The position numbers and the translations under genes are program-made. From a virus, in IMG/VR virus record IMGVR_UViG_3300034012_001258, positions 1 through 29,224 of that record: a stretch of DNA of 29,224 bases, one strand, 5' to 3'. Below, one piece after another: positions 5,855 to 25,811 of the stretch; within the stretch, counting starts at the first letter, position 1; the number at the start of each line of letters is the position of its first letter. The notes under the pieces are model-generated. The model had not been told where the DNA came from. It worked only from the letters and a program-made list of their open reading frames with translations, and did no database searches.

Positions 5855-6657
5855 TGGACTTTATTTCATTCTGCCGGGGACACGGCATCATCATCGACCA
5901 GACTCCACCGATTGGTGTTTGGAAACGATACAGGACAGAAGATCACCCGAATAAAAAGAATGGCGCGGTTAAATGGATGGGGACGTATGGCTTTGTTCAG
6001 AACCACGCACTCGACACCGCGGTCAGTGTATGGCAGTCGGACAAACCGGACGATCATAAGTTCAAACAATTTATTCAGGCAGCGACCGACAAGGTCGAGT
6101 TCATGCAAGAAAAAGCGGCGCGGAAGGCCGGATGGATTCTAAATCAATGCGAGTTATTCACGCATGAATACTTTGTTCGGAAGGGATTCCCAGATGAGAA
6201 GGGTAATGTGTGGTTTAAGGATGATCAGAAGATTTTGGTCATCCCCATGCGCGTTGGTAATCGATTGGTCGGATGTCAGATGATTTCGGAGACGGGCGAG
6301 AAGAAGTTTTTGTTCGGGCAGCGAACCTCGGGAGCGAGTTTTGTTTTCGACAATCATGGCCCGAATTTTTATTGCGAGGGATATGCCACGGCGTTATCGC
6401 TCCGGATGATCCTAAAGTCCATGAAGCGGAGATATACGATCCACGTTTGTTTCTCTGCGCATAACATGCAGAAACTTGCCAAAGACGGGTATGTGATTGC
6501 GGATAACGACGCAAGCCAGACGGGGGAGACGGTAGCGAAGCGAACCGGTTTGAATTATTTCATGCCTCCCGAAGTTGGGGATGACTTCAATGACTATCAC
6601 CGGAAGGTAGGAATACTAAAGGCCGGATTAGCTTTGACGAAGTCACTGAAGCTTTGA
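5851..6657 (+). CDS. Toprim-domain primase-like protein (268 aa)
   Basis: Carries a Toprim catalytic domain in its C-terminal half: FYCEGYATALSLR with the conserved Glu176, then VIADNDASQTGETVA with the DxD pair Asp218/Asp220, and GDDFNDYH at 243-250. Toprim domains of this kind make RNA primers in phage and plasmid primases. No four-cysteine zinc finger is seen at the N-terminus, which instead starts HGIIIDQTPPIGVWKRY, so template recognition may differ or use the zinc ribbon of the adjacent helicase. Start ATGs at 5851 and 5854 are both possible; GGGGAG lies slightly better for the second. It is the last gene of the operon before the terminator. Confidence 0.82.
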   Translation: MMDFISFCRGHGIIIDQTPPIGVWKRYRTEDHPNKKNGAVKWMGTYGFVQNHALDTAVSVWQSDKPDDHKFKQFIQAATDKVEFMQEKAARKAGWILNQCELFTHEYFVRKGFPDEKGNVWFKDDQKILVIPMRVGNRLVGCQMISETGEKKFLFGQRTSGASFVFDNHGPNFYCEGYATALSLRMILKSMKRRYTIHVCFSAHNMQKLAKDGYVIADNDASQTGETVAKRTGLNYFMPPEVGDDFNDYHRKVGILKAGLALTKSLKL

Positions 6658-6837
6658 AGCGTAGAACACGCCCCCAACTTTGAGGTCTTGGGGGTTTTCC
6701 ATTTCGCATGATTTGAGATGCATCAGTAGCTCGACCCCGAGTTCATAACTGTTATGACCGGGGCCATAGTGATCGGCACTGACTCGGACGAACCCGTTAT
6801 CGTCTTCCATGAGATAGATTGCGAACATGGTTTTCAT
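6643..6837 (-). CDS. small hypothetical protein, last gene of the accessory minus operon (64 aa)
   Basis: Function unknown. Convergent with and overlapping the primase gene by 15 bases at the 3' end. It starts nine bases after the DpdA-like gene, with only a weak ribosome site. Compact alpha/beta look (MFAIYLMEDDNGFVRVSADH). The stem of the rightward terminator lies inside its coding sequence, at the codons for ENPQDLK. That is unusual and slightly lowers confidence, but the frame is open and co-directional with the operon. Confidence 0.55.
   Translation of the reverse strand: MKTMFAIYLMEDDNGFVRVSADHYGPGHNSYELGVELLMHLKSCEMENPQDLKVGGVFYASKLQ
6671..6698 (+). terminator. rho-independent terminator of the replication operon
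   Basis: CCCCCAA (6671-6677), 10-base loop, TTGGGGG (6688-6694), then TTTT. It lies 14 bases after the primase stop and within the convergent 64-aa gene. Confidence 0.75.
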
Positions 6838-6845
6838 GTCAAAGC

Positions 6846-7574
6846 CTAGATGAATAGTGGTTTCTGATATTGCATGGTATTGATGCGATCTTCAAACACT
6901 TTCGCTTCGCGCCAGTCATTGCCGTTGCGGCGTTCATATCGAGCGGCAAAAGACCAAGCCATGCTATCAGCGGTATAAAGCAATTCTCGGACTAAACCGG
7001 ATGATAGGGCAGTTGTTTTTACACCGAAACCATGAAGTCTCAAATCCGGACGTTCGGTTTTGATCGCGAGTAAAACATTTTCGATAGCCCCGACGTTTGC
7101 GTTTCGTTTGCAGACAGAGCCTACACCGACCCACATATTTGGCTTTAGCCGGTCGCCATACATTCGAATGTGGTTGACGTAGTCGGATGGGTCATACCCT
7201 TGAAGGACGGGGATGATTGTGATGCCGCCAACGTCGTGTTTGAGCAGCTCATCATAGCGTTCGATGGTCATGGCTTGGTGTTCGGGTATGGTCTTGCCGG
7301 TCATCTCAAGGACGAAGGCCTCGCACATATAATCTTGGGAGACCGCAGCAAGTAGATTTCCGCAAGTTGAAAACCTTTTGATTTGGCTTGCGTATTCTGA
7401 GACGGGGAAACGATAGCCCCCATGTCTGACAACCTCGGTGAATGCGCCGGAGTCCATGATCCAATCATTAACTGGGAAATGGCTTTTGCGGTTTCGAATT
7501 GTATTGACCGAGATAAAGGCCGACTCAAAATGTTTTGCGTCAGCGGGGTGATGTAGTCCAGTGAAGAATCGCAT
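6846..7574 (-). CDS. DpdA-like (TGT-fold) 7-deazaguanine DNA transglycosylase candidate (242 aa)
   Basis: Resembles the phage/actinobacterial queuine tRNA-ribosyltransferase-like family (DUF7221/DpdA type). Known DpdA enzymes swap guanine in DNA for a 7-deazaguanine base, hiding phage DNA from restriction. TGT hallmarks appear in order: MDSGAFTE (Asp41, like TGT DSGGFQ), SQDYMCEAFVLEMTG, IPVLQGYDPSDYV at 121-133, WVGVGSVCKR at 138-147, LHGFGVK at 170-176, and TADSMAWSFAARY at 191-203, where Asp193 is the likely nucleophile. The start at 7574 is set by AGGGGG eight bases before it; the ribosome site lies in a terminator-like hairpin. At 242 residues it is a compact form. No preQ0 synthesis genes are in the window, so the base would come from the host or other phage genes. 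Family assignment is firm in pattern; DNA as substrate is inferred. Confidence 0.75.
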   Translation of the reverse strand: MRFFTGLHHPADAKHFESAFISVNTIRNRKSHFPVNDWIMDSGAFTEVVRHGGYRFPVSEYASQIKRFSTCGNLLAAVSQDYMCEAFVLEMTGKTIPEHQAMTIERYDELLKHDVGGITIIPVLQGYDPSDYVNHIRMYGDRLKPNMWVGVGSVCKRNANVGAIENVLLAIKTERPDLRLHGFGVKTTALSSGLVRELLYTADSMAWSFAARYERRNGNDWREAKVFEDRINTMQYQKPLFI

Positions 7575-7577
7575 AGT

Positions 7578-7596
7578 AAAAACCCCCTTTCGGGGG
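7578..7596 (-). terminator. terminator-like hairpin covering the ribosome site of the DpdA-like gene
   Basis: On the minus strand: CCCCC-GAAA-GGGGG followed by TTTTT and, three bases later, the ATG at 7574. The 3' arm is also the Shine-Dalgarno sequence. It could attenuate transcription into the downstream gene and block its translation when folded. Confidence 0.65.
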
Positions 7597-7680
7597 CTAT
7601 TTGATTTTATTTCGAAGGATTGAAAAGACCGAGACAATGAGAATGACAAGGTCAAGTAGGGCGTTGGTCAGGATCCGCAT
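7597..7680 (-). CDS. very small membrane peptide (27 aa)
   Basis: ATG at 7680 overlaps the previous stop (TGATG). The peptide is one hydrophobic segment (ALLDLVILIVSVFSIL, residues 7-22) followed by a basic tail (RNKIK), which predicts a single membrane helix with the C-terminus in the cytoplasm. It ends at TAG directly before the terminator-like hairpin. Acceptance rests on the tight overlap and the membrane pattern; function is unknown. A second peptide of this type lies at 8264-8332. Confidence 0.5.
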   Translation of the reverse strand: MRILTNALLDLVILIVSVFSILRNKIK

Positions 7681-7877
7681 CAGTACAACGCCTCGCCGTA
7701 ATTTTCCACCGTCTTTTTGGGCGGACGTACAAGGCGAAGCTGAGACCGTCTAAATCTTACCCACTCAGGAAAAGGCCAATCGGATGTATTGATTAGCCGA
7801 ACTAAGTATTCGTCGCCGTCTTGGCGTTCGAAGACGGCTAGACCTCGAGGGGTCTGGACTCTAGCTCCGGAAATCAT
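7680..7877 (-). CDS. small hypothetical phage protein (65 aa)
   Basis: Function unknown. ATG at 7877 with GGAGATATTGCT before it and ATGA overlap with the preceding gene. The sequence begins GARVQTPRGLAVFERQDGDE and continues as beta strands with basic patches (VRFRRSQLRLVRPPKK), the look of a small SH3-like or KOW-like barrel. The acidic/basic split could fit nucleic-acid binding, but no family is named. Confidence 0.65.
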   Translation of the reverse strand: MISGARVQTPRGLAVFERQDGDEYLVRLINTSDWPFPEWVRFRRSQLRLVRPPKKTVENYGEALY

Positions 7878-8062
7878 AGCAATATCTCCTCTGTACTAAC
7901 CCATACCCATGCTTGAACCCATGCGCCGTTGTCGCCGACGGAAATGCGCGGGTTATTTTCAATTTGAATGTCATCGCACTCGTACTCTTGAACGGCTGAT
8001 TGGATGATCGATTTCGCGGCTGAAACCGGCAAGTCATCGTCAGAATAAGCGTAATTTTCCAT
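7874..8062 (-). CDS. small hypothetical phage protein (62 aa)
   Basis: Function unknown. Start at ATG 8062, one base after the stop of the preceding gene, with GGAAAT upstream; an alternative ATG at 8071 would add three residues. A much longer reading from 8239 would run across the whole preceding gene and is rejected. The protein is acidic (ENYAYSDDDLPVSAAKSIIQ) and ends in a beta-rich stretch (AWVQAWVWVSTEEI). Confidence 0.6.
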   Translation of the reverse strand: MENYAYSDDDLPVSAAKSIIQSAVQEYECDDIQIENNPRISVGDNGAWVQAWVWVSTEEILL

Positions 8063-8063
8063 G

Positions 8064-8255
8064 TCAGATTTCCACATTCGGCAAGCACCGCCGGATGAAA
8101 TGATGGGCGGCCTCGACGGTAGCGAAGCGGCGTAGTTCGACGGTATTGTCAGAATCCATGTCGATGATTCGAACGGTCCAAGGATTGTTTCCAGGCTTAT
8201 AAAAGACATGAGCAGCCATGCCGTCGGCACGGTCAACAAATAAGTGTTCGTCCAC
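8064..8255 (-). CDS. small hypothetical phage protein (63 aa)
   Basis: Function unknown. GTG start at 8255 with a strong GGGGGAAAC before it. Short alpha/beta protein: FYKPGNNPWTVRIIDMDSDN, then ELRRFATVEAAHHFIRRC. The layout (strand, strand, helix with ATVEAAHHFI) recalls many small phage proteins that process one modified residue or ligand, but no named family is clear. It sits directly after a membrane peptide gene. Confidence 0.65.
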   Translation of the reverse strand: MDEHLFVDRADGMAAHVFYKPGNNPWTVRIIDMDSDNTVELRRFATVEAAHHFIRRCLPNVEI

Positions 8256-8263
8256 GTTTCCCC

Positions 8264-8332
8264 CTATAAGTAAAAAAAGATGGATGATCCAAGGGCTATG
8301 CCAAAGGCTAGGGCGATGATCCAGTCAGTCAT
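8264..8332 (-). CDS. very small membrane peptide (22 aa)
   Basis: ATG at 8332 overlaps the previous TGA (ATGA). After MTD the peptide is almost entirely hydrophobic (WIIALAFGIALGSSIFFYL), enough for one membrane helix. The TAG is immediately followed by the GGGGG ribosome site of the next gene. Support is the overlap at the start, the short gap to the next gene and the pure membrane pattern. Possible holin-like, leader or lysis-timing peptide; not decidable. Confidence 0.5.
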   Translation of the reverse strand: MTDWIIALAFGIALGSSIFFYL

Positions 8333-8643
8333 TTGATAAACCCCGAAGCGTTCAATGCTTTGCGCCAGTACTTATTTTTAGCCGGATGATTTTCGCGCGC
8401 GTAATGCATGGTTTCGGTGATTTCGTCGCCGGTCCGGTAGTCGGTATCGGGATAGGTCGATAAGTAATCCATGATTGCACCGGATGAAGGCATGGATGAT
8501 ATGAACGTGAAACGTCGCATCAATTCGACCAGCTCTCGAAACCCTACTTCGTCGGTGACTTCGTCATCGATGACAAAGTCAGGGCAATCGTCGTGTTCGT
8601 CGGGTATAGGTTGGCGTTCAATGATTCGGATGATTTTGATCAT
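8329..8643 (-). CDS. hypothetical phage protein, paralogue of the gene at 9508-9804 (104 aa)
   Basis: Function unknown, but clearly related to the 98-aa protein encoded at 9508-9804. Shared landmarks in order: N-terminal MI.I, a DDCPDF / GECEDSGF acidic patch, GFRELVELMRR / TFRDLVRHLRY, DYRTGDE / DYRTGEY, MHYARE / LHFVGP and a tail with KYWRKALN / KYWIKALK. The family is frequent in proteobacterial phages as a stand-alone protein of about 100 residues. TGGAG lies before the ATG at 8643, which overlaps the 40-aa HTH gene. Confidence 0.72.
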   Translation of the reverse strand: MIKIIRIIERQPIPDEHDDCPDFVIDDEVTDEVGFRELVELMRRFTFISSMPSSGAIMDYLSTYPDTDYRTGDEITETMHYARENHPAKNKYWRKALNASGFIK

Positions 8644-8762
8644 GATTGCTCCATGAGGATTTTCTTTAAAGCCGGGATTGATAACCCGGTGATTTGTGAG
8701 AGTTCCCGAAGGGTCATGTTTAACTTGCGCGTATATAGTTCGCGGATTTCGTCATGGGTCAT
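8640..8762 (-). CDS. 40-residue HTH protein
   Basis: ATG at 8762 with AAAGGA before it, stop overlapping the start of the next gene (ATGA). The chain MTHDEIRELYTRKLNMTLRE followed by LSQITGLSIPALKKILMEQS has a classic helix-turn-helix at residues 17-36 (TLRELSQITGLSIPALKKIL) and nothing else. It could be a small DNA-binding regulator of this block, or a domain that binds another protein. It is short but well supported by ribosome site and overlap. Confidence 0.6.
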   Translation of the reverse strand: MTHDEIRELYTRKLNMTLRELSQITGLSIPALKKILMEQS

Positions 8763-8783
8763 GGTTTTTCCTTTGGCGTTGAT

Positions 8784-9452
8784 TCAATGTTCAATGAAGG
8801 CTATAGCCTTTGTCGTGGTCCAACATAACCCGCATGTCAGGCATGATTGTGTTTTCCCAATTTGCTCAGGGCATGTTATGCCTTCGCCGTGGACGTTCGC
8901 CGACATGGTGCCGCCTTTATCGGACCATCGGATCCATGCGCGGTCATTCTGCAAATGACGGGCAATTGCATCGGCTATCGGTCCATCGGTCCGATGCGTG
9001 TACCCGAATAGATGAAGGGCAGGATAGGCCCGAAGGGCATTAGCCCAAAAGTTAACGTATTCAGGACTAAAAAAGTCTCCAAGTACATGTAACCGGATTA
9101 CAAACCCGTCCGGATGTACCCTTGAAAGATGCTCGATTTCGTCATGGAGACGCATTTCGAGCAATTCGGGTTCGGATGAACTAATCCGATGCGCGAATCC
9201 CATATTGTTTCCGAAACACCTAGCCCACTGTTGACATGTCCGGGAACATGTCGCGCGTTCTTCAAGGGTTAGCGTATACATGGCCATGCCGGACCACTTG
9301 CCCTTTGTGATTACGTTCGAACCCGCTCCAAGTTTTGCGTTACCGCTAGCGGGTTTAAGTAATCGCGAAGCATAGTCGCTCAAGGGTTTGACCGTCTTCG
9401 GGTGTATCGTTATTGCCCGTTCTAGTGCCGGGTGATTGTCGCGTAGTCTCAT
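8784..9452 (-). CDS. GP88-family (Gene product 88) protein, cysteine-rich (222 aa)
   Basis: Matches the phage Gene product 88 family in pattern: SNVITKGKWSGMAMYTLTLE, CSRTCQQWARCFGNNMGFAH, VIRLHVLGDFFSPEYVNFW, LHLFGYTHRT and the C-terminal CPEQIGKTQSCLTCGLCW. Cys69, Cys73 and Cys79 form CX3CX5C, and Cys194, Cys204, Cys207 and Cys210 form a second cluster. The layout, with a Cys motif before strands such as IRLHVLGDFF, resembles TIM-barrel iron-sulfur enzymes, and radical SAM chemistry is a plausible inference. Family function is not established to my knowledge. GGAGATAAC precedes the ATG at 9452. It shares its operon with the DpdA-like gene, so a joint role in base modification is possible. 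Confidence 0.75.
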   Translation of the reverse strand: MRLRDNHPALERAITIHPKTVKPLSDYASRLLKPASGNAKLGAGSNVITKGKWSGMAMYTLTLEERATCSRTCQQWARCFGNNMGFAHRISSSEPELLEMRLHDEIEHLSRVHPDGFVIRLHVLGDFFSPEYVNFWANALRAYPALHLFGYTHRTDGPIADAIARHLQNDRAWIRWSDKGGTMSANVHGEGITCPEQIGKTQSCLTCGLCWTTTKAIAFIEH

Positions 9453-9478
9453 TGTTATCTCCGTTTAGTAAGCCCACA

Positions 9479-9500
9479 AAAACCCTCCGTGAAGGGTTTT
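9479..9500. terminator. bidirectional terminator-like hairpin upstream of the GP88 gene
   Basis: AAAACCCT-ccgtga-AGGGTTTT: perfect 8-bp arms with A/T ends on both strands, so it can act leftward and rightward. Leftward it separates the 9508-10437 genes from the GP88-to-DpdA genes, so the latter may need read-through or another promoter. Confidence 0.65.
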
Positions 9501-9507
9501 AATTGGA

Positions 9508-9804
9508 TTACTTAAGGGCAAGTTTTAAGGCTTTAATCCAGTACTTTTCCTTGTTAGCGGGACCGACGAAATGCAAGTGTTCGGTCCGGTATTCTCCGGT
9601 CCGATAGTCTTGTTCGGGTTCGCTTGATACCCAAGTGTCCGGACCGATGACTGATGACGAAGGGTGAGGAAAATAACGCAAGTGACGAACTAGATCGCGA
9701 AACGTAAACGGCTCGAATTCGAATTCGAATCCGCTATCTTCGCATTCGCCGTGTTCGGCGGATTCTTGGGTGACTACTTCGTAGGTTTTGCTGATCAGGA
9801 TCAT
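9508..9804 (-). CDS. hypothetical phage protein, paralogue of the gene at 8329-8643 (98 aa)
   Basis: Function unknown; the second copy of the family described at 8329-8643. Visible features: GECEDSGFEFEFEPFTFRDL, HPSSS, EQDYRTGEYRTEHLHF and KYWIKALKLALK. Start ATG 9804 is preceded by GGAG with six bases between; an upstream in-frame reading to 9912 has no ribosome site. A weak stem (GGG-CTAAA-CCC on the minus strand) with nine T residues lies 10-30 bases upstream of the ATG. The two copies flank the GP88 and HTH genes. Confidence 0.7.
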   Translation of the reverse strand: MILISKTYEVVTQESAEHGECEDSGFEFEFEPFTFRDLVRHLRYFPHPSSSVIGPDTWVSSEPEQDYRTGEYRTEHLHFVGPANKEKYWIKALKLALK

Positions 9805-9856
9805 GTCATGCTCCAAAAAAAAAGGGTTTAGCCCAGCTCCAAATCTATAACGATAT

Positions 9857-10021
9857 TTACTCGTCTTCGACGTTGATAATGTCAATTTGATAGTCGGCAT
9901 TGCGAAGATCATCGTCGATTTCGGTTTCGCCGTTAAGGATCAGATCTTCGAGTTCCTGTACTGATTCGGCACTGATCGCGCGGGTGACTGAGACGGTGAC
10001 TGTAACGGTGAAAGTTTTCAT
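9857..10021 (-). CDS. small beta-rich hypothetical protein (54 aa)
   Basis: Function unknown. ATG at 10021, three bases after the stop of the preceding small gene, with AGGGG upstream. Begins MKTFTVTVTVSVTRAISAES, a run of alternating residues typical of a long beta strand, followed by an acidic helix (VQELEDLILNGETEIDDDL) and a short strand (YQIDIINVEDE). The alternation and clean frame make it more likely real than chance. Confidence 0.6.
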   Translation of the reverse strand: MKTFTVTVTVSVTRAISAESVQELEDLILNGETEIDDDLRNADYQIDIINVEDE

Positions 10022-10024
10022 GCT

Positions 10025-10108
10025 CTAACCCCTACAAGTGAAGGTGATTGGTTCGGTTTCGATAATTCGAAAACCCTTCGTTTCGTCGAATCCTGAAGCT
10101 TTCGCCAT
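10025..10108 (-). CDS. very small hypothetical protein (27 aa)
   Basis: ATG at 10108 immediately after the upstream stop, with GGGAAGG (from the end of that gene) about eight bases before it, and a TAG three bases before the next ATG. The peptide reads MAKASGFDETKGFRIIETEP and then ITFTCRG. Spacing suggests a translated gene in the operon; the length allows no function to be called. Confidence 0.4.
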   Translation of the reverse strand: MAKASGFDETKGFRIIETEPITFTCRG

Positions 10109-10110
10109 GT

Positions 10111-10437
10111 CTAAAGCCTTCCCTGATAAGTGATAGTGTTTTCGCTTTCGTCAGACAATGGAGCGGTGAACTTGTTAGGGATTACGGTGAACACGAAACC
10201 GCGATTGTCTAAGGTGTTACCACAACAATGCATTCCTCCGGACCCGAATGACTCGGGAAAGTGTTTCTTTAAAAGTGCAATCGCCGCAAACCTATGCGCG
10301 GCTTCAGTTCCAACGGTCCAGTCAAAATTGACGGTTGCACTGAAGTTGATTCGATTGCCGCGACAAACAATTGCTTTGACTCGGGCTTGGTTTTTGTCCG
10401 TTGGACCGAGATACTTAGTATGGATTGCTAGACTCAT
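10111..10437 (-). CDS. hypothetical phage protein, first gene of the accessory minus operon (108 aa)
   Basis: Function unknown. Start ATG 10437 has AAAGGAGCGATC before it; a longer frame from 10476 lies inside the promoter. Landmarks: HTKYLGPTDKNQARVKAIVC, ATVNFDWTVGTEAAHRFAAI, LLKKHFPESFGSGGMHCCGN and a C-terminal FVFTVIPNKF. The mixture of strands and a central helix suggests one compact domain, and similar short proteins occur in other phages. It is directly downstream of the leftward promoter and operator at 10450-10494, so it is expected to be transcribed most. Confidence 0.68.
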   Translation of the reverse strand: MSLAIHTKYLGPTDKNQARVKAIVCRGNRINFSATVNFDWTVGTEAAHRFAAIALLKKHFPESFGSGGMHCCGNTLDNRGFVFTVIPNKFTAPLSDESENTITYQGRL

Positions 10438-10449
10438 GATCGCTCCTTT

Positions 10450-10477
10450 GGTGTACGAAATCCTAGTGTAGTACACC
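10450..10477. promoter_or_regulatory. operator-like inverted repeat over the leftward -10
   Basis: GGTGTAC (10450-10456) and GTACACC (10471-10477) form perfect 7-bp arms 14 bases apart; inside, GTGTA-G-TACAC (10466-10476) is a second, overlapping dyad. The -10 hexamer (10465-10470) lies between and within these arms, fitting a repressor site. Confidence 0.5.
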
Positions 10478-10494
10478 TAAGTTTACCTCGTCAA
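10465..10494 (-). promoter_or_regulatory. candidate sigma70-type promoter of the accessory minus operon
   Basis: Minus strand TTGACG (10489-10494), 18-bp spacer, TACACT (10465-10470). It would start transcription about 20 bases before the first leftward gene. A clear -35 and a TAnnnT -10. Confidence 0.6.
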
Positions 10495-10508
10495 CCGATA
10501 TTTATCGG
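10495..10508. promoter_or_regulatory. dyad between the two divergent -35 boxes
   Basis: CCGATA-tt-TATCGG, perfect 6-bp arms. It begins directly beside the leftward -35 (10489-10494) and ends five bases before the rightward -35 (10514-10519), a position where one bound protein could control both promoters. A T-rich tract follows, so weak termination is an alternative. Confidence 0.45.
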
Positions 10509-10513
10509 GTTTG

Positions 10514-10542
10514 TTGTTTTCCTTTTTTGTTCCCATTAGAAT
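10514..10542 (+). promoter_or_regulatory. candidate sigma70-type promoter of the packaging/late operon
   Basis: TTGTTT (10514-10519), 17-bp spacer, TAGAAT (10537-10542). Transcription would begin near 10549, 30 bases before the small terminase gene. Confidence 0.5.
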
Positions 10543-10579
10543 CGCGCGATCCGAACCCAAGCCCGAAGGGCAATAGCCT

Positions 10580-11284
10580 ATGAAACTTTCAAGGAAACAA
10601 GCAAAGCAAGCATTGGAGCAAATGCCAATGGTCGAAATACTCGGTAAAGACGTTTCCCGTCAGTTAACGCATAAGCAAAAGGAATTTGCTCGCAATGTGG
10701 CAATGGGCGAAACAAAGGCTAGCGCATACAGAAAAGCATATAAAAGCGATCCTAAGCATTCAACGATTGTCACCGCGCCTTATAAGCTTGCGAGCGATCC
10801 TAGAATTAAACGTGAGATCGAAGCTTACGAGTTAGCGATTGAGTCGGCGAAATATCGCTCCCCTATTGCTTTGCGAGAATTGGTCGTACAAAGCTTGGTG
10901 CAAGTGCTAGTCGATCCAGAGTCTAGCCAATCCGCGAAGATATCAGCGGCTCGAGTACTCGGCACTGTAACCGAAGTATCGGCGTTTACTGAGCGTAAGG
11001 AAATCAAGCATGTTTCGTCATCCAATGACGCGCGAAAAACCATCATGGATCAACTGTCGGCGTTGATCAAGGCTGAAGCAATCGACGTTGACCCCTCCCA
11101 ATTGTTACAGGAATTGGGACAGGCCCACCCCTCCCCCACCCCCCTGGATGCTGAGACGGATCCGGCCTCGCCTGTACATACTATTCCACTCCAACAGTCA
11201 GAAAAAATAAACGATACCCCCTCCCCAAGCAAAATTTCCCCCGATGATAATGATGAAGTTTATAGCACCACCCCCGGGGTGTAA
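10580..11284 (+). CDS. terS: terminase small subunit (234 aa)
   Basis: Recognises phage DNA and guides the large terminase to it for packaging. After a short lead the core is typical of small terminases: LTHKQKEFARNVAMGETKAS, AYRKAYKSDPKHSTIVTAPY, KLASDPRIKREIEAYELAIE, a helix-turn-helix fold with ASAYRKAY as recognition element, then SAARVLGTVTEVSAF. The C-terminal 60 residues are Pro/Ser-rich and low in complexity (HPSPTPLDAETDPASP and on), encoded by C-runs, and probably unstructured. Start ATG 10580 follows GAAGGG. Position in front of the large terminase supports the call. Other HTH phage proteins share this layout, so it is likely but not certain. Confidence 0.75.
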   Translation: MKLSRKQAKQALEQMPMVEILGKDVSRQLTHKQKEFARNVAMGETKASAYRKAYKSDPKHSTIVTAPYKLASDPRIKREIEAYELAIESAKYRSPIALRELVVQSLVQVLVDPESSQSAKISAARVLGTVTEVSAFTERKEIKHVSSSNDARKTIMDQLSALIKAEAIDVDPSQLLQELGQAHPSPTPLDAETDPASPVHTIPLQQSEKINDTPSPSKISPDDNDEVYSTTPGV

Positions 11285-11646: not shown

Positions 11647-12080
11647 GGGTTGAGTTAAGTGATATGGAGTTGATGATGGCGCGTTTTATTGCGGCGTCGA
11701 GGCAGACGTATGGGAGGAGGAATTACGAGGATAAGAAAAAGATGGAGGACGGCTTCCAGGCGGATGTGGATGGGATGATTGGGGAGATGTGTTTTGGGAA
11801 GTTGTTTAACTATTACGTGGATGTAAGTTTGGGAAAGAGGAAGGCTGATTTTGTTTCGAGGAAGGGTGAGAGTATTGATGTGAAGAGTACGAGGTATAGG
11901 AACGGGCGGCTTTTAGCTACACTGGATAAGACCCAAGACCCGTGCGATATTTATGTACTGATGGTGGTGGATGATAGGGGTGGGGAGTATAGGGGTTACG
12001 TGAAAAAAGAGGATTTGTTTAAGGACGAGAATAAAAAGGACTTAGGCCGCGGCGAAGGTTATGTCTATGAATTTAAGTGA
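11643..12080 (+). CDS. PD-(D/E)XK nuclease-like protein (145 aa)
   Basis: A possible metal-dependent nuclease. Three spaced acidic elements fit the PD-(D/E)XK core: Glu48 in DGMIGEMCFGKLF, Asp69 in KRKADFVSRKG, and Asp79-Val-Lys81 in SIDVKSTRYRNGRLL, followed by a strand in CDIYVLMVVDDRGG and a tail with GYVKKEDLF. Similar short phage proteins carry this signature. The start is taken at the TTG at 11643, overlapping the previous TGA, with AGGA seven bases before; ATG 11664 is the alternative. Its place between a regulator and the large terminase suggests a packaging or DNA-degradation role, but the substrate is unknown. Confidence 0.62.
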   Translation: MRVELSDMELMMARFIAASRQTYGRRNYEDKKKMEDGFQADVDGMIGEMCFGKLFNYYVDVSLGKRKADFVSRKGESIDVKSTRYRNGRLLATLDKTQDPCDIYVLMVVDDRGGEYRGYVKKEDLFKDENKKDLGRGEGYVYEFK

Positions 12081-13542
12081 TTTGATAGCGAAGCTACCCG
12101 TGGCGGAACAGGAGAAACTGTTAAGTCAGGTGGTGGAGTATAAAAACGCTTTAGAAAGAGAGAGATGCCAGAAGTCGTTCATGTCTTACGTGAAGAAGAT
12201 GTGGCCGGGGTTTATATTAGGTCGGCATCACGCCTTGATGGGGCAGAAGTTTGAGGAGATCGCAGAGGGTAAAGTAAAGCGATTAATTATTAACATCGCA
12301 CCTCGGCATACAAAGTCTGAGTTTGCTAGTTACTTATTGCCTAGTTGGTACTTAGGGAAATATCCGAATAAGAAGGTGATACAGACTTCGAATACGGCGG
12401 ATTTGGCTGTGAACTTCGGAAGGAAGGTTAGAAATTTAGTGATGAGTGAGCAGTACCGAGAGATCTTTAATGTGTCTCTACGGCAGGATTCGAAGGCGGC
12501 TGGCCGGTGGGCGACTAATTTTGATGGGGAATATTTTGCTATTGGGGTGGGTGGTACGGTAACGGGTAAGGGTGCGGACTTATTGATTATTGACGACCCG
12601 CATTCAGAGCAGGAAGCAACAGGGGATCCCGCGGCGTTTGATCGGGTTTTTGAGTGGTATACATCTGGACCGCGTCAGCGTCTACAGCCTGGAGGAGCCA
12701 TAGTCGTTGTCATGACTAGGTGGTCGGACAGAGACTTAACAGGGAAAATAATTAAGGAAGCGGCAAAGAGGGATAAGCACGAGGAGTGGGAGGTTATTGA
12801 ACTACCGGCGATTATGCCGAGTGGAAATCCTCTATGGCCTGAGTTCTGGTCGTTAAAAGAGTTAGAGGCGTTAAGGGAGGAGCTACCTCCTAGTAAATGG
12901 AATGCTCAGTACCAGCAGACCCCGACAGGCGAAGAAGGCGCGATAGTAAAAAGAGAATGGTGGAAGGTGTGGGAGAAGGACGATCCTCCGGCGTGTGATT
13001 TTATTATTCAGAGCTGGGACACCGCGTTTACGAAAAGTGAGAGGGCTGACTACTCGGCGTGTACGACATGGGGTGTCTTTTATAAGGATGAAGATAAAAG
13101 GGATCCGAACATTATTATGTTGGATGCCTTCCAAAAACGAATGGAATTCCCTGAGTTAAAAGACAAAGCTTTAAGTCAGTATAAGTACTGGGAGCCGGAT
13201 GCTTGTATTATCGAGGCCAAAGCTGCTGGCGCGCCGTTAGTGTTTGAACTTAGGCAGATGGGGGTACTTGTTTCTGAGTACACCCCGGTGAGAGGTAATG
13301 ATAAGTTTGTAAGAATAAATAGTGTTTCTGATCTGTTTAGATCAGGAAAGGTATGGAGGCCGGATACGAGATGGGCAGAGGAAGTTGTCGAACAGATGGC
13401 TGCCTTCCCTAATGCGGAACATGATGACCTCGTAGACTCAAGTGTGCAGGCACTGATACGATTCAGACAAGGCGGATTTTTACGGCTGGCTACCGATGAA
13501 GAGGATGAGCCAGTGTCCTTTCGCAGGAAAGCTTATTACTAA
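12067..13542 (+). CDS. terL: terminase large subunit, ATPase and nuclease (491 aa)
   Basis: Motor that pumps DNA into the prohead and cuts it. Visible motifs: a variant Walker A APRHTKSE at 78-85, Walker B LLIIDDP with Asp166/Asp167, the coupling segment VVVMTRWSDRDLTG, and a nuclease domain with Asp308 (IQSWDTAFTKSE), Glu373 (CIIEAKAAGAP) and Asp443/Asp444/Asp447 (AEHDDLVDSSVQAL). Length and motif order are those of terminase_6-type large subunits. Two start ATGs lie at 12061 and 12067; the second is chosen because GAAGG is better spaced to it. It overlaps the nuclease-like gene by about 14 bases. Confidence 0.93.
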   Translation: MNLSDLIAKLPVAEQEKLLSQVVEYKNALERERCQKSFMSYVKKMWPGFILGRHHALMGQKFEEIAEGKVKRLIINIAPRHTKSEFASYLLPSWYLGKYPNKKVIQTSNTADLAVNFGRKVRNLVMSEQYREIFNVSLRQDSKAAGRWATNFDGEYFAIGVGGTVTGKGADLLIIDDPHSEQEATGDPAAFDRVFEWYTSGPRQRLQPGGAIVVVMTRWSDRDLTGKIIKEAAKRDKHEEWEVIELPAIMPSGNPLWPEFWSLKELEALREELPPSKWNAQYQQTPTGEEGAIVKREWWKVWEKDDPPACDFIIQSWDTAFTKSERADYSACTTWGVFYKDEDKRDPNIIMLDAFQKRMEFPELKDKALSQYKYWEPDACIIEAKAAGAPLVFELRQMGVLVSEYTPVRGNDKFVRINSVSDLFRSGKVWRPDTRWAEEVVEQMAAFPNAEHDDLVDSSVQALIRFRQGGFLRLATDEEDEPVSFRRKAYY

Positions 13543-13551
13543 GGAATGATA

Positions 13552-15900
13552 ATGATAGATCGACCCCTTGAGCCTATTGAGTCAGAAGGTATTGAAATTG
13601 AAATCGTTAATCCTGAGTCTGTATCCATAGGGATGGACGGGCTAGAAATAGAAATAGAACCCGGACAGGAATCAGCAGAAGACTTTGATGCGAACCTTGC
13701 TGACTATATGTCAGAGTCAGAACTATCGACTTTGGCGACCGATTTAATCGGTGAGGTCGATGCAGATATCGGCTCGAGAAAAGACTGGGTCGATATGTAC
13801 GTTAAAGGGTTAGAAGTTTTAGGGATGAAATATGAGGAGAGGACAGAACCCTGGAACGGAGCCTGCGGTGTGTTCTCGACCTTATTAACAGAAGCGGCGG
13901 TACGGTTTCAGTCTGAAATGATTATCGAAACCTTCCCTGCTCAGGGTCCAGTGAAGACCGAGATTATCGGTCAGATTACTAAAGAAAAAGAAGACGCAGC
14001 CGAAAGGGTAAAAGACGATATGAACTATCGTTTAACTGAGACCATCCCTGAATATAGACCTGAACATGAAAGGATGTTATTTAATTTAGGTCTTAGCGGC
14101 GCCGCTTTTAAAAAGGTTTACTACGACCCGAATTTAGGGCGAGAGACGGCGGTGTTTATTCCCGCTGAAGATGTGATTATTCCTTACGGAGCGTCTGGAG
14201 CGAGGACCGCGGAACGCGTCACACACATGATGCGTAAGACTAAAAACGATATCCACCGGCTTCAGGTTAAAGGATTTTATCGGGATGTTGAGTTAGGTGA
14301 CCCGATAAAAATTCATAATGACGTTGAAGAAAAGAAAGCCGAAGAGACGGGGTTTTCGATTAACGACGATGACAGATATTTAATCTGTGAAATACAGGTG
14401 GATTTAAATCTACCTGGGTTTGAAGAGGAAGACGACGTAGCCGTTCCTTATATTATTACCATCGATAAAGGAACGAATAAAGTTCTATCGATATACAGGA
14501 ACTGGCGTGAAGGCGATCACTTATATAGAAAGCGTCAGCACTTAGTTCAGTATGACTACGTCCCAGGATTTGGTGCTTATGGCTTTGGGTATATCCATTT
14601 AATCGGCGGATATGCTCGAGCAGGTACGATGTTGATTAGACAATTAGTCGATGCGGGTACGTTATCTAATTTACCAGGAGGTCTTAAGTCTCGAGGTCTT
14701 AGGGTAAAAGGTGATGACACCCCGATAGCGCCGGGAGAATTCAGAGACGTAGATGTTCCTAGTGGCGCGATTAAAGATAATATTATGACGCTTCCTTATA
14801 AGGAGCCGTCACAAGTCTTAGCCGCTTTATTAGATAAGATAAGTGAAGAAGGCAGAAGATTAGGGTCGATTGCTGACATGAAAGTCAGTGATATGTCGTC
14901 TCAAGCGCCGGTAGGAACGACCTTAGCTCTCTTAGAGAGACAGTTAAAAACCATGAGTGCGGTGCAAGCCCGTGTTCATGCGGCGATGAAGCAGGAATTT
15001 AAGCTACTAAAAGACATTATTAAGGACTATAGCCCTGAAGAATATAGCTATATCCCTGAAGGCGGCGACCGAAAAGCCAAACAAGAGGACTACGAACACG
15101 TAGAAATCATCCCAGTGAGTGATCCCAACGCCGCAACGATGGCTCAAAGGATCATGCAATACCAAGCGGTCATCCAATTAGCGGCTCAAGCCCCACAAAT
15201 TTACGATTTACCCCAGTTACATCGGCAAATGATTGAAGTTTTAGGGGTGAAAAACGCCGATAAGTTGGTTCCGTTACCTGAAGATCAGCATCCTAAAGAC
15301 CCTGTTTCTGAAAACATGGCGTTTTTAAGGATGGAACCCACGAAAGCGTTCATATATCAGGACCACGACGCTCATATTGCGACTCACATGACCTTTATTC
15401 AGGATCCAATGATCCAACAAATGATTGGTCAGAACCCGATGGCGCAGCAAATTGGTTCCGCGGTACAGGCACACGTAGCAGAACACCTATCTTTCCTTTA
15501 TAGAAGAAAAATTGAGGAGCAAATCGGCGTTCCTCTGCCGCCTCCTAACGAAAAACTTCCAGATGATGTGGAGGTTGAGATATCAAGACTGACAGCACAG
15601 GCTGGCGCGCAGCTCTTACAGATGAACATGGCTCAAGCCCAACAGCAACAAGCCATGCAACAAGCCCAAGATCCGATTGTTCAGATGCAACAGGCTGAAC
15701 TACAGATCAAAGCCGAAGAAGTTAAGAGAAAAGCCGCTAAAGATCAGGCTGATATTGCTTTAGCCCAAGCAAGATTAAAAGTCGAGCAAGAGCGTATAGC
15801 TATCGAGGCTCAAAAAGAACAGCAACGCTTACAGGCTAAGTCTGTTGAGAACGATAAAAAACTCAAGGCTGATGTTCTTACGAAAATGACGAGGGGCTAA
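13552..15900 (+). CDS. portal protein (782 aa)
   Basis: Forms the dodecameric ring through which DNA enters the head. Recognised from size, position directly after TerL and landmarks common in portal proteins of uncultured aquatic phages: WNGACGVFSTLLTEAAVRFQ near the N-terminus, LSGAAFKKVYYDPNLGRE, VPYIITIDKGTNKVLSIYRN, FGFGYIHLIGGYARAGTMLI-type core, SSQAPVGTTLALLERQLKTM. The last 120 residues are Gln- and Ala-rich and strongly coiled coil (QAQQQQAMQQAQD, then VKRKAAKDQADIALAQARLK), probably a barrel or crown. Start at ATG 13552 is favoured because AAGGA is six bases away; an ATG at 13546 abuts it. TAATG overlap with the next gene. Confidence 0.85.
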   Translation: MIDRPLEPIESEGIEIEIVNPESVSIGMDGLEIEIEPGQESAEDFDANLADYMSESELSTLATDLIGEVDADIGSRKDWVDMYVKGLEVLGMKYEERTEPWNGACGVFSTLLTEAAVRFQSEMIIETFPAQGPVKTEIIGQITKEKEDAAERVKDDMNYRLTETIPEYRPEHERMLFNLGLSGAAFKKVYYDPNLGRETAVFIPAEDVIIPYGASGARTAERVTHMMRKTKNDIHRLQVKGFYRDVELGDPIKIHNDVEEKKAEETGFSINDDDRYLICEIQVDLNLPGFEEEDDVAVPYIITIDKGTNKVLSIYRNWREGDHLYRKRQHLVQYDYVPGFGAYGFGYIHLIGGYARAGTMLIRQLVDAGTLSNLPGGLKSRGLRVKGDDTPIAPGEFRDVDVPSGAIKDNIMTLPYKEPSQVLAALLDKISEEGRRLGSIADMKVSDMSSQAPVGTTLALLERQLKTMSAVQARVHAAMKQEFKLLKDIIKDYSPEEYSYIPEGGDRKAKQEDYEHVEIIPVSDPNAATMAQRIMQYQAVIQLAAQAPQIYDLPQLHRQMIEVLGVKNADKLVPLPEDQHPKDPVSENMAFLRMEPTKAFIYQDHDAHIATHMTFIQDPMIQQMIGQNPMAQQIGSAVQAHVAEHLSFLYRRKIEEQIGVPLPPPNEKLPDDVEVEISRLTAQAGAQLLQMNMAQAQQQQAMQQAQDPIVQMQQAELQIKAEEVKRKAAKDQADIALAQARLKVEQERIAIEAQKEQQRLQAKSVENDKKLKADVLTKMTRG

Positions 15901-17039
15901 TGATCTGGAACAGTGACTTAAAGGTCTTTAATGACCAGGAATGCAAAGAACTCGTGGAAGAGTTTTGTTCGGGAGAACATACCGATGAAAACAAGATGCC
16001 GGAGTACTATAAAAATAGCTATGGTTACTTTAACCTCCCTAAGTCACTGCAATACGTAGATCGTCTCACTTCATTAATTAAAGATCGATACCCGTCAGCG
16101 GTTTTTGCTAATACATATACCCGTTCATATCATCGTCATAGCGTCTTAAATTTACATACAGACCGGAAAGGTTTAGACCTGACGCTAAGTGTGTGTCTCG
16201 AGGATAAAAACAACCTTGACTGGCCGCTTAATATAAGCGCTAAGACCTATGACGGTGACGAGTGGGATTTAAAAGCTGATAGTAATCACTATAAAGACAA
16301 ATACTTAGAAGCGCATTTCGGCGTAGGACATGGCGCAGTGATGGAGGGCAGGCGATTCCCTCACTGGCGCGATGAATTGCTATGCGGCGAAAAGCAGCGA
16401 GCCGTTTATATTTTTTACCATTGGACGCTGCCCAAGGTAAAAGAAACAAGTCGAGTTTTATTTAGGTCAACAAAACCTATAGAGACGGCGCTATACGGAA
16501 ACTTTTTAACAAAAGAAGAATGTAAAGAACTTATCGATCAAGCTTCGACCAAGTTATTTAAATCAACGGTTGTCCATCATGAGACCGGTCAGCCAACCGA
16601 TCACCCTCATCGAACAAGTTACGGCACGTTTTTACAGCGAGGGAGTTCGCCATTGGTCAGCCAGTTAGAGCAGCGTATTGCTCAAATAACAGGGGTTCCA
16701 GTAGAACATGGCGAGGGATTGCAAATCCTTCGTTATGAAGAAGGACAAGAGTACAAACCTCATCATGATTACTTTGATCCTTCTAGACCTCCAACTACAC
16801 AAGACCTTGATAAATCCGGCCAAAGAATCGCGACGTTTCTTATTTATTTAAATACGCCAGAAGAAGGTGGCGGAACGTACTTCCCAGAAGCGAATTTAGA
16901 GTTCGAAGCTTTAGAAGGAAACGCGTTGTTATTTAAGTACCCTAATATGGAAAGAGCCTCTTTACACGCAGGCGTGCCTGTAAAAAAAGGGGTGAAATGG
17001 GTAGCGACTAAGTGGCTTAGGCAGAGGCCATTCCGATGA
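15900..17039 (+). CDS. tandem-domain 2-oxoglutarate/Fe(II) oxygenase, prolyl-4-hydroxylase-like (379 aa)
   Basis: A hydroxylase using Fe(II), O2 and 2-oxoglutarate. The C-terminal domain (about 190-379) is a clear prolyl-4-hydroxylase type: ILRYEEGQEYKPHHDYFDP with His288-x-Asp290, QRIATFLIYLNTPEEGGGTY, FPEANLEFEALEGNALLF, LHAGVPVKKGVKWVATKW with His356 and Lys366. The N-terminal half shows a second, diverged set: LHTD (His86, Asp88), FPHWRDELL (His155), with Lys165 or Arg167 as oxoglutarate anchor. The two domains are joined at VKETSRVLFRSTKPIETALY. The substrate is probably prolyl residues in protein; a glycosyltransferase-like gene follows with an ATGA overlap. Start by TAATG overlap, with GAGGGG before it. 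Confidence 0.85.
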   Translation: MIWNSDLKVFNDQECKELVEEFCSGEHTDENKMPEYYKNSYGYFNLPKSLQYVDRLTSLIKDRYPSAVFANTYTRSYHRHSVLNLHTDRKGLDLTLSVCLEDKNNLDWPLNISAKTYDGDEWDLKADSNHYKDKYLEAHFGVGHGAVMEGRRFPHWRDELLCGEKQRAVYIFYHWTLPKVKETSRVLFRSTKPIETALYGNFLTKEECKELIDQASTKLFKSTVVHHETGQPTDHPHRTSYGTFLQRGSSPLVSQLEQRIAQITGVPVEHGEGLQILRYEEGQEYKPHHDYFDPSRPPTTQDLDKSGQRIATFLIYLNTPEEGGGTYFPEANLEFEALEGNALLFKYPNMERASLHAGVPVKKGVKWVATKWLRQRPFR

Positions 17040-17884
17040 TAAGCATACCTATTGCGGTATGCGCGGGAAATTTTGGGCTTCAGTTAGATTTGTTTTGGTA
17101 TCAGCACAAAAAAATCTATGGCGTTCAGGCATGGAGAAAAGCACTTGCTTTGGTAGTTAATAAGAATGAACCGCACGAAGAAGCGCATAAGATCTTGCCG
17201 TGGGATATCAATCTTCCGCATAGCCTTGTTGTAAGTTGTTTTGAGTTTTTAAACTTAGAACAAATTTATGACCGGCTTATAGTACCGATAAATATTCAAG
17301 TAGCTTTAATACAAGCATTAAAAGACTTTGATGATGAGGAAGTTATTGAGTTATTAGATTGCGATATGTTTCATTTAAAACGCCATCCAAAGATAGACGT
17401 TAAAGATGAAGTAATCGTTTCAAATATCTACGAAGGCTGGCACTTAAAAAGTTTAACAGAGCATAAACACCTTGTAGAGCCTTTGTTAATCAAAGAACAT
17501 GGACCTTACAACGGTGGGTTTGTGCCTATTATTGCAAAGGCCAAGACGTTTAAAAAAATAGCTATTACGTGGCTTCAGGCTCATAAACAAATATTTCAGA
17601 GTACGGAGTCAAAAGACTTTCGTTGGTGGGCTGGTATGTACGCCTTACAAGTAGCTTGTGCCAACCATCGAGTCCACATGCGGCATGAAGATCTTGTTTA
17701 TGTCCCTGGGTTTAACAATTACAAGCCATCTCATTACATCAGTCATTATTCATGCGATACAAGATTTAACAAGAAAATTATTAAATCGATTGAAGATATA
17801 AAGACTGATAATTTTTTAGAGAATGATTTTTATTGGGCGGTGAAAGATTGGCTTGAATCAAGGAAAAGACATGGATGTGTTTGA
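17036..17884 (+). CDS. glycosyltransferase-like protein resembling hydroxyproline/serine O-glycosyltransferases (282 aa)
   Basis: Landmarks recall plant/algal hydroxyproline O-arabinosyltransferases and peptidyl-serine galactosyltransferases (GT95/GT96 type): the DxD-type metal site ELLDCDMFHLKRHP (Asp108, Asp110), EHGPYNGGFVPIIAKA with YNGG at 158-161, RWWAGMYALQVACANHRV at 196-213 (compare their W..EMYAYA..A) and a late PSHYISHYSCD (compare I.HYTY). In those enzymes sugar is added to hydroxyproline or serine in secreted proteins. Here it overlaps by ATGA a prolyl-hydroxylase-like gene, so a two-step modification is suggested. No signal peptide or membrane segment is visible, so it acts in the host cytoplasm. 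Family by pattern, not by a search. Confidence 0.6.
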   Translation: MISIPIAVCAGNFGLQLDLFWYQHKKIYGVQAWRKALALVVNKNEPHEEAHKILPWDINLPHSLVVSCFEFLNLEQIYDRLIVPINIQVALIQALKDFDDEEVIELLDCDMFHLKRHPKIDVKDEVIVSNIYEGWHLKSLTEHKHLVEPLLIKEHGPYNGGFVPIIAKAKTFKKIAITWLQAHKQIFQSTESKDFRWWAGMYALQVACANHRVHMRHEDLVYVPGFNNYKPSHYISHYSCDTRFNKKIIKSIEDIKTDNFLENDFYWAVKDWLESRKRHGCV

Positions 17885-21739: not shown

Positions 21740-22660
21740 ATGGAACAAGTCATTTATAAGATCATCAACGTCGTCAACAGCAAATTTTATGTAGGAAGTA
21801 CAACAAACAAAAAGGTGCGTTTTAGGCAGCATCGTAAATTGCTTCGAGGTAACAGGCATCACTGCAAACATTTGCAAGCATCGTGGAACAAGTACGGTGA
21901 AGATAAGTTTGAGTTTGTTGTTGTTGAAGTTGTTCCAAGTGCTATGTCTCTTCAACAAATAGAAGATATATATTTGTTTCAACACGTTGGGCAGCCTATG
22001 TGCTACAACTCTGGGTATTCAGCGGACGCTCCTTGGCGTAATGCCCCGCCAGAGTCTACGCCAAACTTTGGCAAAGTTATGGCGCAGCAACAAAAAGAAC
22101 AGATCTCTAAAACGCTAAAAGATTTTTACGCAGCTGATTACTTTAACCACCCTCGAGTCGGTAAGAAGCATTCTGAGGAGACACGGTTAAAGATTCGACA
22201 GAACAGAACGCCTACAAGCGGTGAAAATCATTACCGTTACGGCCAAAAGATTTCTGAAGGCGTAAGAAAAAAAATTGGCGACACTCAACGAGGCAAACCA
22301 AAAGCACCGGGAAGAAAGGTTTCGGAGGAAGGTCTCAAAAAAATCAGGAAAAATATAGAAGAAGGCCGAAGCCATAAAACGTTCTTAGGAAAAAAACATA
22401 CGGAAGAAAGCAAAATGAAAATGAGTAAAACTGTATTTGTTATGCCAGACGGCATTCTGTTTCCAAGTCTTACTTCGGTTCTTTCCTACTATGGGATCAA
22501 GATGCCAACGCTTCGTAGAGCGTTGATATCTGGTAAACCCTTGTCGAAAGGTCGGCTAGCCGGTTACGGGTTTAAGTATGGAGGCGTAGACTCAAAACCG
22601 ACTGAAAATGATATGGCATTGATACGTGCAAAGCTTGTTGACACCATCCCAACAAACTGA
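21740..22660 (+). CDS. GIY-YIG homing endonuclease with NUMOD3 motifs (306 aa)
   Basis: A selfish DNA-cutting enzyme that copies its gene into uninvaded alleles. The N-terminal 90 residues are a GIY-YIG domain: VIYKIINVVNSKFYVGST (the GIY and YIG tyrosines are Tyr6 and Tyr17), VRFRQHRKLLRGNRHHCKHL with Arg27 and His31, LQASWNKYGEDKFEFV, and Glu75 in LQQIEDIYLF as metal ligand. The C-terminal half holds NUMOD3-type DNA-binding repeats: GKKHSEETRLKIRQN, GKPKAPGRKVSEEGLKKIRK and GKKHTEESKMKMSK. It is free-standing, on the coding strand, with its own promoter between the capsid gene and the next virion gene. Confidence 0.88.
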   Translation: MEQVIYKIINVVNSKFYVGSTTNKKVRFRQHRKLLRGNRHHCKHLQASWNKYGEDKFEFVVVEVVPSAMSLQQIEDIYLFQHVGQPMCYNSGYSADAPWRNAPPESTPNFGKVMAQQQKEQISKTLKDFYAADYFNHPRVGKKHSEETRLKIRQNRTPTSGENHYRYGQKISEGVRKKIGDTQRGKPKAPGRKVSEEGLKKIRKNIEEGRSHKTFLGKKHTEESKMKMSKTVFVMPDGILFPSLTSVLSYYGIKMPTLRRALISGKPLSKGRLAGYGFKYGGVDSKPTENDMALIRAKLVDTIPTN

Positions 22661-25266: not shown

Positions 25267-25346
25267 AAGCCCCGCAAAAAAGTCTAAAAGATTGGACGTT
25301 ATGTTTTTATTGCTGCGCTAACCGAGGAATGAGATGTCCCAAATAG
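25263..25346 (+). pseudogene. 5' remnant of the gene now at 25839, cut by the HNH insertion
   Basis: A GTG overlapping the previous stop (GTGA) opens a frame that reads MKAPQKSLKDWT before running into the HNH insert and ending at TAG 25344-25346. The six residues QKSLKD and the Trp after them are repeated exactly in the intact gene starting at 25839. The likely original gene began here; the endonuclease cassette separated this start from the rest. Confidence 0.7.
25275..25295 (+). repeat. left copy of the 21-bp repeat flanking the HNH cassette
   Basis: Codons for QKSLKDW. Compared with 25857-25877, 18 of 21 bases match, and all three differences are synonymous (AGT/TCT, AAA/AAG). Confidence 0.75.
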
Positions 25347-25811
25347 TTTGGCAATTTGGCGTAGACTATAACCTTGGTTTAGTAAGGCGAGATATTCTTG
25401 CTTACGCGCTTCGTGAATACGGCGTTTTGCGCTTGCAATTTTTTGAGATTCCCAATTATGCCTTTCGCTGCCGTATCCAGAGTTTTGTTTGGCGGTTACC
25501 CATCGCAAATTGGAAACATGGTTATTTTGGCGGTTGCCGTCTATGTGATCAACTTGAGGCAAATGTTCCGGGTTTTGCAAAAACATCTGCGCTACAAGCC
25601 GATGAACGTACCGATAACTACCGCGACCAAGCGCTACACGCATGTAACCAGTTGAATGCTTCCAAGGCTGTAATTGCTTTATTTTGTCAACTTTTATACG
25701 ATGTTTTAACCCGCGTTGCGGGATATCTGACCAATTTGCTTGTACGTTTCCAAAATTACTTACCGAATAACGTCCGCCAGAGTCGGCAATTTCTATCCAG
25801 ATTTCGTTCAT
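25299..25811 (-). CDS. HNH homing endonuclease (NUMOD4/HNH_3) with C-terminal HTH, antisense to the late operon (170 aa)
   Basis: A selfish site-specific nuclease. The start MNEIWIEIADSGGRYSVSNF followed by GNVQ is a NUMOD4 module; YRYVHRLVAQMFLQNPEHLP with QVDHIDGNRQNNHVSNLRWV is the HNH_3 core (His in VHRLVA, the Asp-His of VDHIDG, the Asn of NNHVSNLRW). The C-terminal QGYSLRQIAKLFGTSHSSVS is a helix-turn-helix for target recognition. Ribosome site AAAAGGAG before ATG 25811. It runs against all neighbouring genes with its own promoter at 25831-25859. Its stop lies three bases from the broken gene remnant. Confidence 0.9.
   Translation of the reverse strand: MNEIWIEIADSGGRYSVSNFGNVQANWSDIPQRGLKHRIKVDKIKQLQPWKHSTGYMRVALGRGSYRYVHRLVAQMFLQNPEHLPQVDHIDGNRQNNHVSNLRWVTAKQNSGYGSERHNWESQKIASAKRRIHEARKQEYLALLNQGYSLRQIAKLFGTSHSSVSAAIKT

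Follow-up and report, generated by a model that had tools for sequence, protein, structure and literature searches.

In a 29,224-base virus record (IMG/VR record IMGVR_UViG_3300034012_001258, the whole of which is called the window here), a gene for a candidate DNA-guanine transglycosylase, dpdA, and a gene for a cysteine-rich protein of the GP88 family lie in one block on the minus strand, and comparison with related phages revealed that the two genes are gained and lost independently of each other. An earlier note on this DNA had suggested that they could form a small anti-restriction system, a proposal that is not supported, as no association between the two genes was found across phages outside one close lineage. 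We consider it probable (about 0.6) that single-gene cassettes fill a variable accessory region at minus-strand 10476-6643, with dpdA and GP88 independent of each other and dpdA using a base of the host. Such a region, in a phage lineage whose terminase is related to those of Pelagibacter phages, would hold dpdA as an optional cassette encoding a compact enzyme of the tRNA-guanine transglycosylase (TGT) fold, which would most likely replace guanine of the phage DNA by a 7-deazaguanine, either preQ0 or preQ1, that the queuosine pathway of the host supplies. GP88 would be a second, independent cassette, encoding a probable iron-sulfur (Fe-S) protein that works at DNA by an unrelated mechanism.

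Seven contigs, which all belong to one close lineage, carry both genes, always on the same strand and in the same block. The lineage slot that holds them, between the small terminase gene and a small open reading frame (ORF) at 6643-6837, is variable in content. One relative (L010) encodes a GP88 protein 100% identical to that of the window along with other small ORFs, and in it the interval from GP88 to the following conserved gene lacks dpdA. A second (L017) retains both flanks of dpdA around an empty site, with the 5' flank of the window aligning to its positions 2375-2498 and the 3' flank to 2510-2572, such that 12 nt stand in place of the whole dpdA gene while GP88 (78%) is still there. 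GP88 (75%) without dpdA was also seen in L328, and neither gene was present in L329 or L330. The contig L022 revealed mosaicism, as its DpdA is 100% identical to that of the window over 242 residues, yet the GP88 on the same contig is only 77% identical. L014 was left out of the count of contigs with GP88 and no dpdA, because it ends short of the dpdA site. Based on these patterns, we concluded that the two genes come and go separately.

The same picture emerged outside the lineage. DpdA was found in 0/46 GP88 contigs longer than 10 kb, with an upper 95% bound of about 6%, and in none of five isolate phages whose complete genomes encode this GP88 subfamily. Conversely, a GP88-family gene was present in 3/74 DpdA records and in 1/31 terminase-matched control contigs (Fisher P = 1); many of the records are fragments, which makes the absolute rates lower bounds, a limit that the controls share. 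In the two cases outside the lineage where GP88 and DpdA are near each other, they lie on opposite strands. An apparent GP88 in the DpdA-bearing Microcystis phage Mwe-JY07 (L335) was below the cut-off and was not counted, because DUF5131 matches an overlapping part of that ORF; the double match hints at a distant homology between GP88 and Gp37/Gp68. On the co-occurrence counts and the empty-site data together, GP88 was rejected as a partner of DpdA.

As to what each gene encodes, the earlier reading of a TGT-fold DpdA candidate on the minus strand stands in gene identity, strand and predicted fold. The ORF at 6846-7655 matched the Pfam DpdA family (PF23859) with an E value of 2.5e-35 (122.3 bits, above the curated cut-off of 27) and phrog_1279, 'queuine tRNA-ribosyltransferase', with an E value of 1.1e-60. 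The start was set at the ATG at 7574, because homologues begin there, which gives a protein of 242 residues; the TTG at 7655 is probably wrong as a start and would add 27 non-conserved residues. An AlphaFold2 model based on 38 homologues had a predicted local distance difference test score (pLDDT) of 94.6 and a predicted template modelling score (pTM) of 0.91. Its best Foldseek match in the PDB was 7ui4, the DNA preQ0 insertase DpdA (E 1.9e-6), and VIA-align gave, over about 226-228 of the 242 residues, a Z of 19.2 to archaeosine TGT and a Z of 18.1 to 7ui4, the latter with a root-mean-square deviation of 3.4 over 226 residues. The TGT motifs occur in order, as D41 (DSGAF; D41-S-x-A-F), D81 (QDYMCE; Q-D81-x-M-C-E), Q125-G126, G150-V-G152 and D203, and D41, D81, Q125, G126, G150, G152 and D203 are invariant across the 38 homologues, which leaves the catalytic aspartates and the motifs for base recognition intact. 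The spacing from D81 to Q125 is 44, the same as from D143 to Q187 of the E. coli enzyme, a mapping based on motif order and spacing and not on superposed coordinates. A sequence-level comparison with E. coli TGT by hhalign gave no signal, and fold and motifs were relied on instead; nor did a PDB profile search with either DpdA or GP88 return a meaningful match. Together, the profile matches and the model establish the family and the predicted TGT fold of DpdA, whereas its action on DNA, the base it would use and an anti-restriction role are what we infer.

The likeness to known enzymes has clear limits. The protein shares the TGT fold with 7ui4 over its whole length, but the chain of the latter is 413 residues long, and the two are 16% identical. 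Bacterial tRNA-guanine transglycosylases and the archaeal ArcTGT are alike in fold (Z up to 19.2) and in the order and spacing of the D, D, Q-G, G and D motifs, whereas the window protein has the profile identity of DpdA, and the CxCxxC (plus His) zinc motif of the tRNA enzymes was not found in it, its only cysteines being C71, C84 and C155. Among isolates, its nearest relatives (55% identity) are in Sinorhizobium phage phiLM21 and Rhizobium phage RHph_TM3_3_3, followed by Microcystis phages; mycobacteriophages account for 390 of the 399 records matching DpdA, at about 35-38% identity.

The second gene, at 8784-9452, was likewise confirmed as a GP88 member with CX3CX5C and CxxCxxC clusters, matching PF17338 (E 6.5e-7; 29.9 bits, curated cut-off 24.4) and phrog_2554 (E 9.8e-23). 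All seven cysteines, C69/C73/C79 (CX3CX5C), C194 and C204/C207/C210 (CxxCxxC), are invariant in 85 of 85 homologues, all of which match the GP88 profile and 84 of which also match DUF7227 (PF23872), at E <= 1. The window protein thus has the three-Cys motif, GD motif and C-terminal CxxCxxC of GP88 (PF17338)/DUF7227 (PF23872)/phrog_2554, and differs from other branches in belonging to an alphaproteobacterial-type subfamily, often with N-terminal extensions bearing helix-turn-helix (HTH) segments. Several homologues have such segments, some in tandem, one has a C-terminal GcrA-like segment, and the C-terminal part of another is weakly similar to DUF6551. Because homologues carry the HTH and GcrA-like segments, these sequences point to a role at DNA, and a metal is presumably held by the cysteines. 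GP88 is probably an independent cassette for a DNA-associated Fe-S protein with a mechanism unrelated to that of DpdA; we found no functional study of GP88 in the literature. In two contigs (L227:7827-9677 and L222:3881-5530) a GP88 domain is followed by a C-terminal part that, judged by eye, resembles ParB, for which Pfam gave only the weak DUF6551 match in L222 (E 0.0019). In Ruegeria phage 45A6 (L002, 8116-8802), an annotated adenylosuccinate synthetase gene lies near GP88, which could mean that this phage has a pathway for 2-aminoadenine (Z) DNA.

What such a protein would do at DNA is open to a more specific, tentative proposal, that GP88 is a divergent enzyme like those of the radical S-adenosylmethionine (SAM) family, kin of the phage Gp37/Gp68 proteins (DUF5131), which modifies DNA or a DNA-bound target alone. 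We regard it as possible, with the odds somewhat against it. The AlphaFold2 model (pLDDT 91.8) had no significant match in the PDB (best Foldseek E 0.13), and of its 12 best VIA rows eight were radical-SAM enzymes (two of LIAS, three NifB-type entries, and one each of QueE, lysine aminomutase and RlmN) at a weak Z of 4.4-4.9, values below 8 that may reflect merely a common arrangement. Weak viral fold rows likewise included a putative radical SAM protein and a Gp37/Gp68 protein. The GP88 profile cross-matches DUF5131 proteins in the three-Cys and GD region, although below the cut-off (E 3.8e-4 and 3.3e-3), and both profiles fall on one ORF at one phage locus; set against this, hhalign of the GP88 and DUF5131 alignments was not significant (probability 0.9%), and the CX3CX5C of GP88 differs from the canonical CX3CX2C. 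The HTH and GcrA-like fusions would fit an enzyme of this kind. The fold comparison thus hints at a radical-SAM-like fold as a lead only. It is rather doubtful that the entire GP88/DUF7227 superfamily forms a branch of the radical-SAM-like three-Cys proteins not recognised before, with kinship to Gp37/Gp68 (DUF5131) and an action on DNA that is independent of DpdA; N-terminal HTH repeats are present in several members, and in some the C-terminal part is GcrA-like or weakly DUF6551-like.

Returning to dpdA as a cassette that uses a host base, the absence of a visible preQ0-synthesis gene, already remarked on in the earlier note, was borne out by wider searches. QueC (PF06508) and PTPS/QueD (PF01242) were not found in 34 records, nor was FolE (PF01227) in 39, both sets including the window, its near-complete relatives of 58.4 and 60.9 kb and other DpdA records, so that no DpdA accompanied by the full preQ0-synthesis cluster (FolE, QueD, QueE, QueC) was seen; QueE and QueF were not searched. 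The QueC, QueD and FolE searches were positive in control genomes, including that of the alphaproteobacterium Caulobacter vibrioides. With none of these genes found, any 7-deazaguanine base would therefore plausibly be supplied by the host. The close relatives of DpdA and of GP88 come mostly from phages and prophages of Alphaproteobacteria, and preQ0 is made by many bacteria on the way to tRNA queuosine, which makes scavenging of the base plausible. Of the two sources that the earlier note had considered, host supply is thus sensible and has a published precedent, while the supply or further modification of the base by GP88 is not supported. The precedent is the described group of dpdA-only phages, for which host dependence has been proposed (Hutinet 2019, PMC6884629).

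Several points weigh against DNA modification with a host base. Of the two phages of that group that were tested, Mycobacterium phage Orion had no modification, and in Salmonella phage 7-11 dADG made up only about 0.02% of Gs (Hutinet 2019, PMC6884629), and the presence of DpdA is therefore no proof of modified DNA; for Orion, unmodified DNA is expected, as preQ0 is made by neither the phage nor its host (PMC6884629). Most of the records, moreover, are fragments for which no estimate of completeness exists. The same data from Orion and 7-11 would fit a different explanation, in which the target of the short DpdA is not phage DNA but, for instance, host tRNA, or the enzyme is barely active for want of a base, with the gene persisting as a mobile cassette. 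The TGT fold is common to tRNA and DNA enzymes, the top Z (archaeosine TGT) is close to that of 7ui4, and the CxCxxC motif is missing. We nevertheless think this explanation unlikely, since it is DpdA and not a tRNA TGT that is the profile match and the top Foldseek match, and the invariance of the catalytic motifs argues for selection on activity. In phage CAjan, DpdA is essential for modification (PMC6884629).

Very improbable, finally, is a single anti-restriction module in which an Fe-S enzyme GP88 supplies or further modifies the 7-deazaguanine: the shared strand and block in seven related contigs, the Fe-S-like cysteine clusters and the fit of some HTH fusions with DNA targeting speak for it, but the identical GP88 protein without dpdA in L010, the empty site in L017, the counts outside the lineage, with a GP88-family rate in DpdA contigs not above that of the controls, and the opposed orientation of the two independent neighbouring cases speak against it.

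The layout of the block (Table 1) agrees with the earlier note in placing both genes on the same minus strand, but they are not adjacent, with about 1.2 kb and several small ORFs between them. A scan for sites found 6 where 5.2 were expected by chance, so that single sites such as the hairpins are weak evidence and suggestive only. A search of 6500-10700 for Rfam elements, the preQ1 riboswitch included, gave no match, and no tRNA genes were found in the window. At the nucleotide level, the block gave a single match of 113 nt to GenBank phages, located inside dpdA.

Table 1. Features of the minus-strand accessory block, in window coordinates.
Feature	Position	Strand	Basis or remark
dpdA, short (242 aa) TGT-fold DNA-guanine transglycosylase candidate	6846..7574	-	ATG start 7574; PF23859, phrog_1279, AlphaFold2, Foldseek, VIA-align
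GP88-family seven-cysteine protein, 222 aa	8784..9452	-	PF17338, phrog_2554, 7 Cys invariant, AlphaFold2
Small ORFs between dpdA and GP88	7680-7877, 7874-8062, 8064-8255, 8329-8643	-	No family match above cut-off; set of ORFs differs between relatives
Terminator-like hairpin directly upstream of dpdA ATG	7598-7581	-	Also at dpdA-less junction of L017
Terminator-like hairpin upstream of GP88	9495-9483	-	Scan
Conserved small ORF 'm64', marks 3' side of dpdA cassette site	6643..6837	-	In relatives with and without dpdA
Promoter-like site ahead of whole minus-strand block	10465..10494	-	Weak, consensus only

Elsewhere in the window, the large terminase (12061-13542, plus strand) is 52-53% identical to those of Pelagibacter phages HTVC027P and HTVC023P and 56% identical to that of phage 023Pt_psg01. 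Right after the gene in the portal position lies a prolyl-hydroxylase-like 2-oxoglutarate-Fe(II) oxygenase gene (15900-17039, plus strand; PF13640, E 1.4e-16), which overlaps by 4 nt a gene of the hydroxyproline O-arabinosyltransferase family (17036-17884, plus strand; PF23452, E 5.3e-8, over the cut-off); the two are possibly a pair that hydroxylates and glycosylates a protein of the phage or of its host. Homing-type endonucleases, GIY-YIG/NUMOD3 and HNH/NUMOD4, are found among the structural genes at 21740-22660 (plus strand) and 25299-25811 (minus strand).

A lone dpdA without synthesis genes is already known in phages (Hutinet 2019, PMC6884629), and the window resembles the third group of that study (for example Salmonella phage 7-11 and Mycobacterium phage Orion) in having DpdA without preQ0 synthesis genes and with a host base proposed. 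It differs in that its DpdA is short, closest to the phiLM21 and RHph_TM3_3_3 proteins and more distant from those of mycobacteriophages. Our results show how natural empty sites, together with counts of co-occurrence, allow a plausible two-gene system of defence evasion to be rejected. They also cast a compact DpdA that comes without synthesis genes as a mobile cassette of one gene, which means that closely related phages with and without dpdA exist in nature. If isolated, such phages would be ready-made controls for asking whether a lone DpdA modifies DNA with a host base and whether it protects from restriction.

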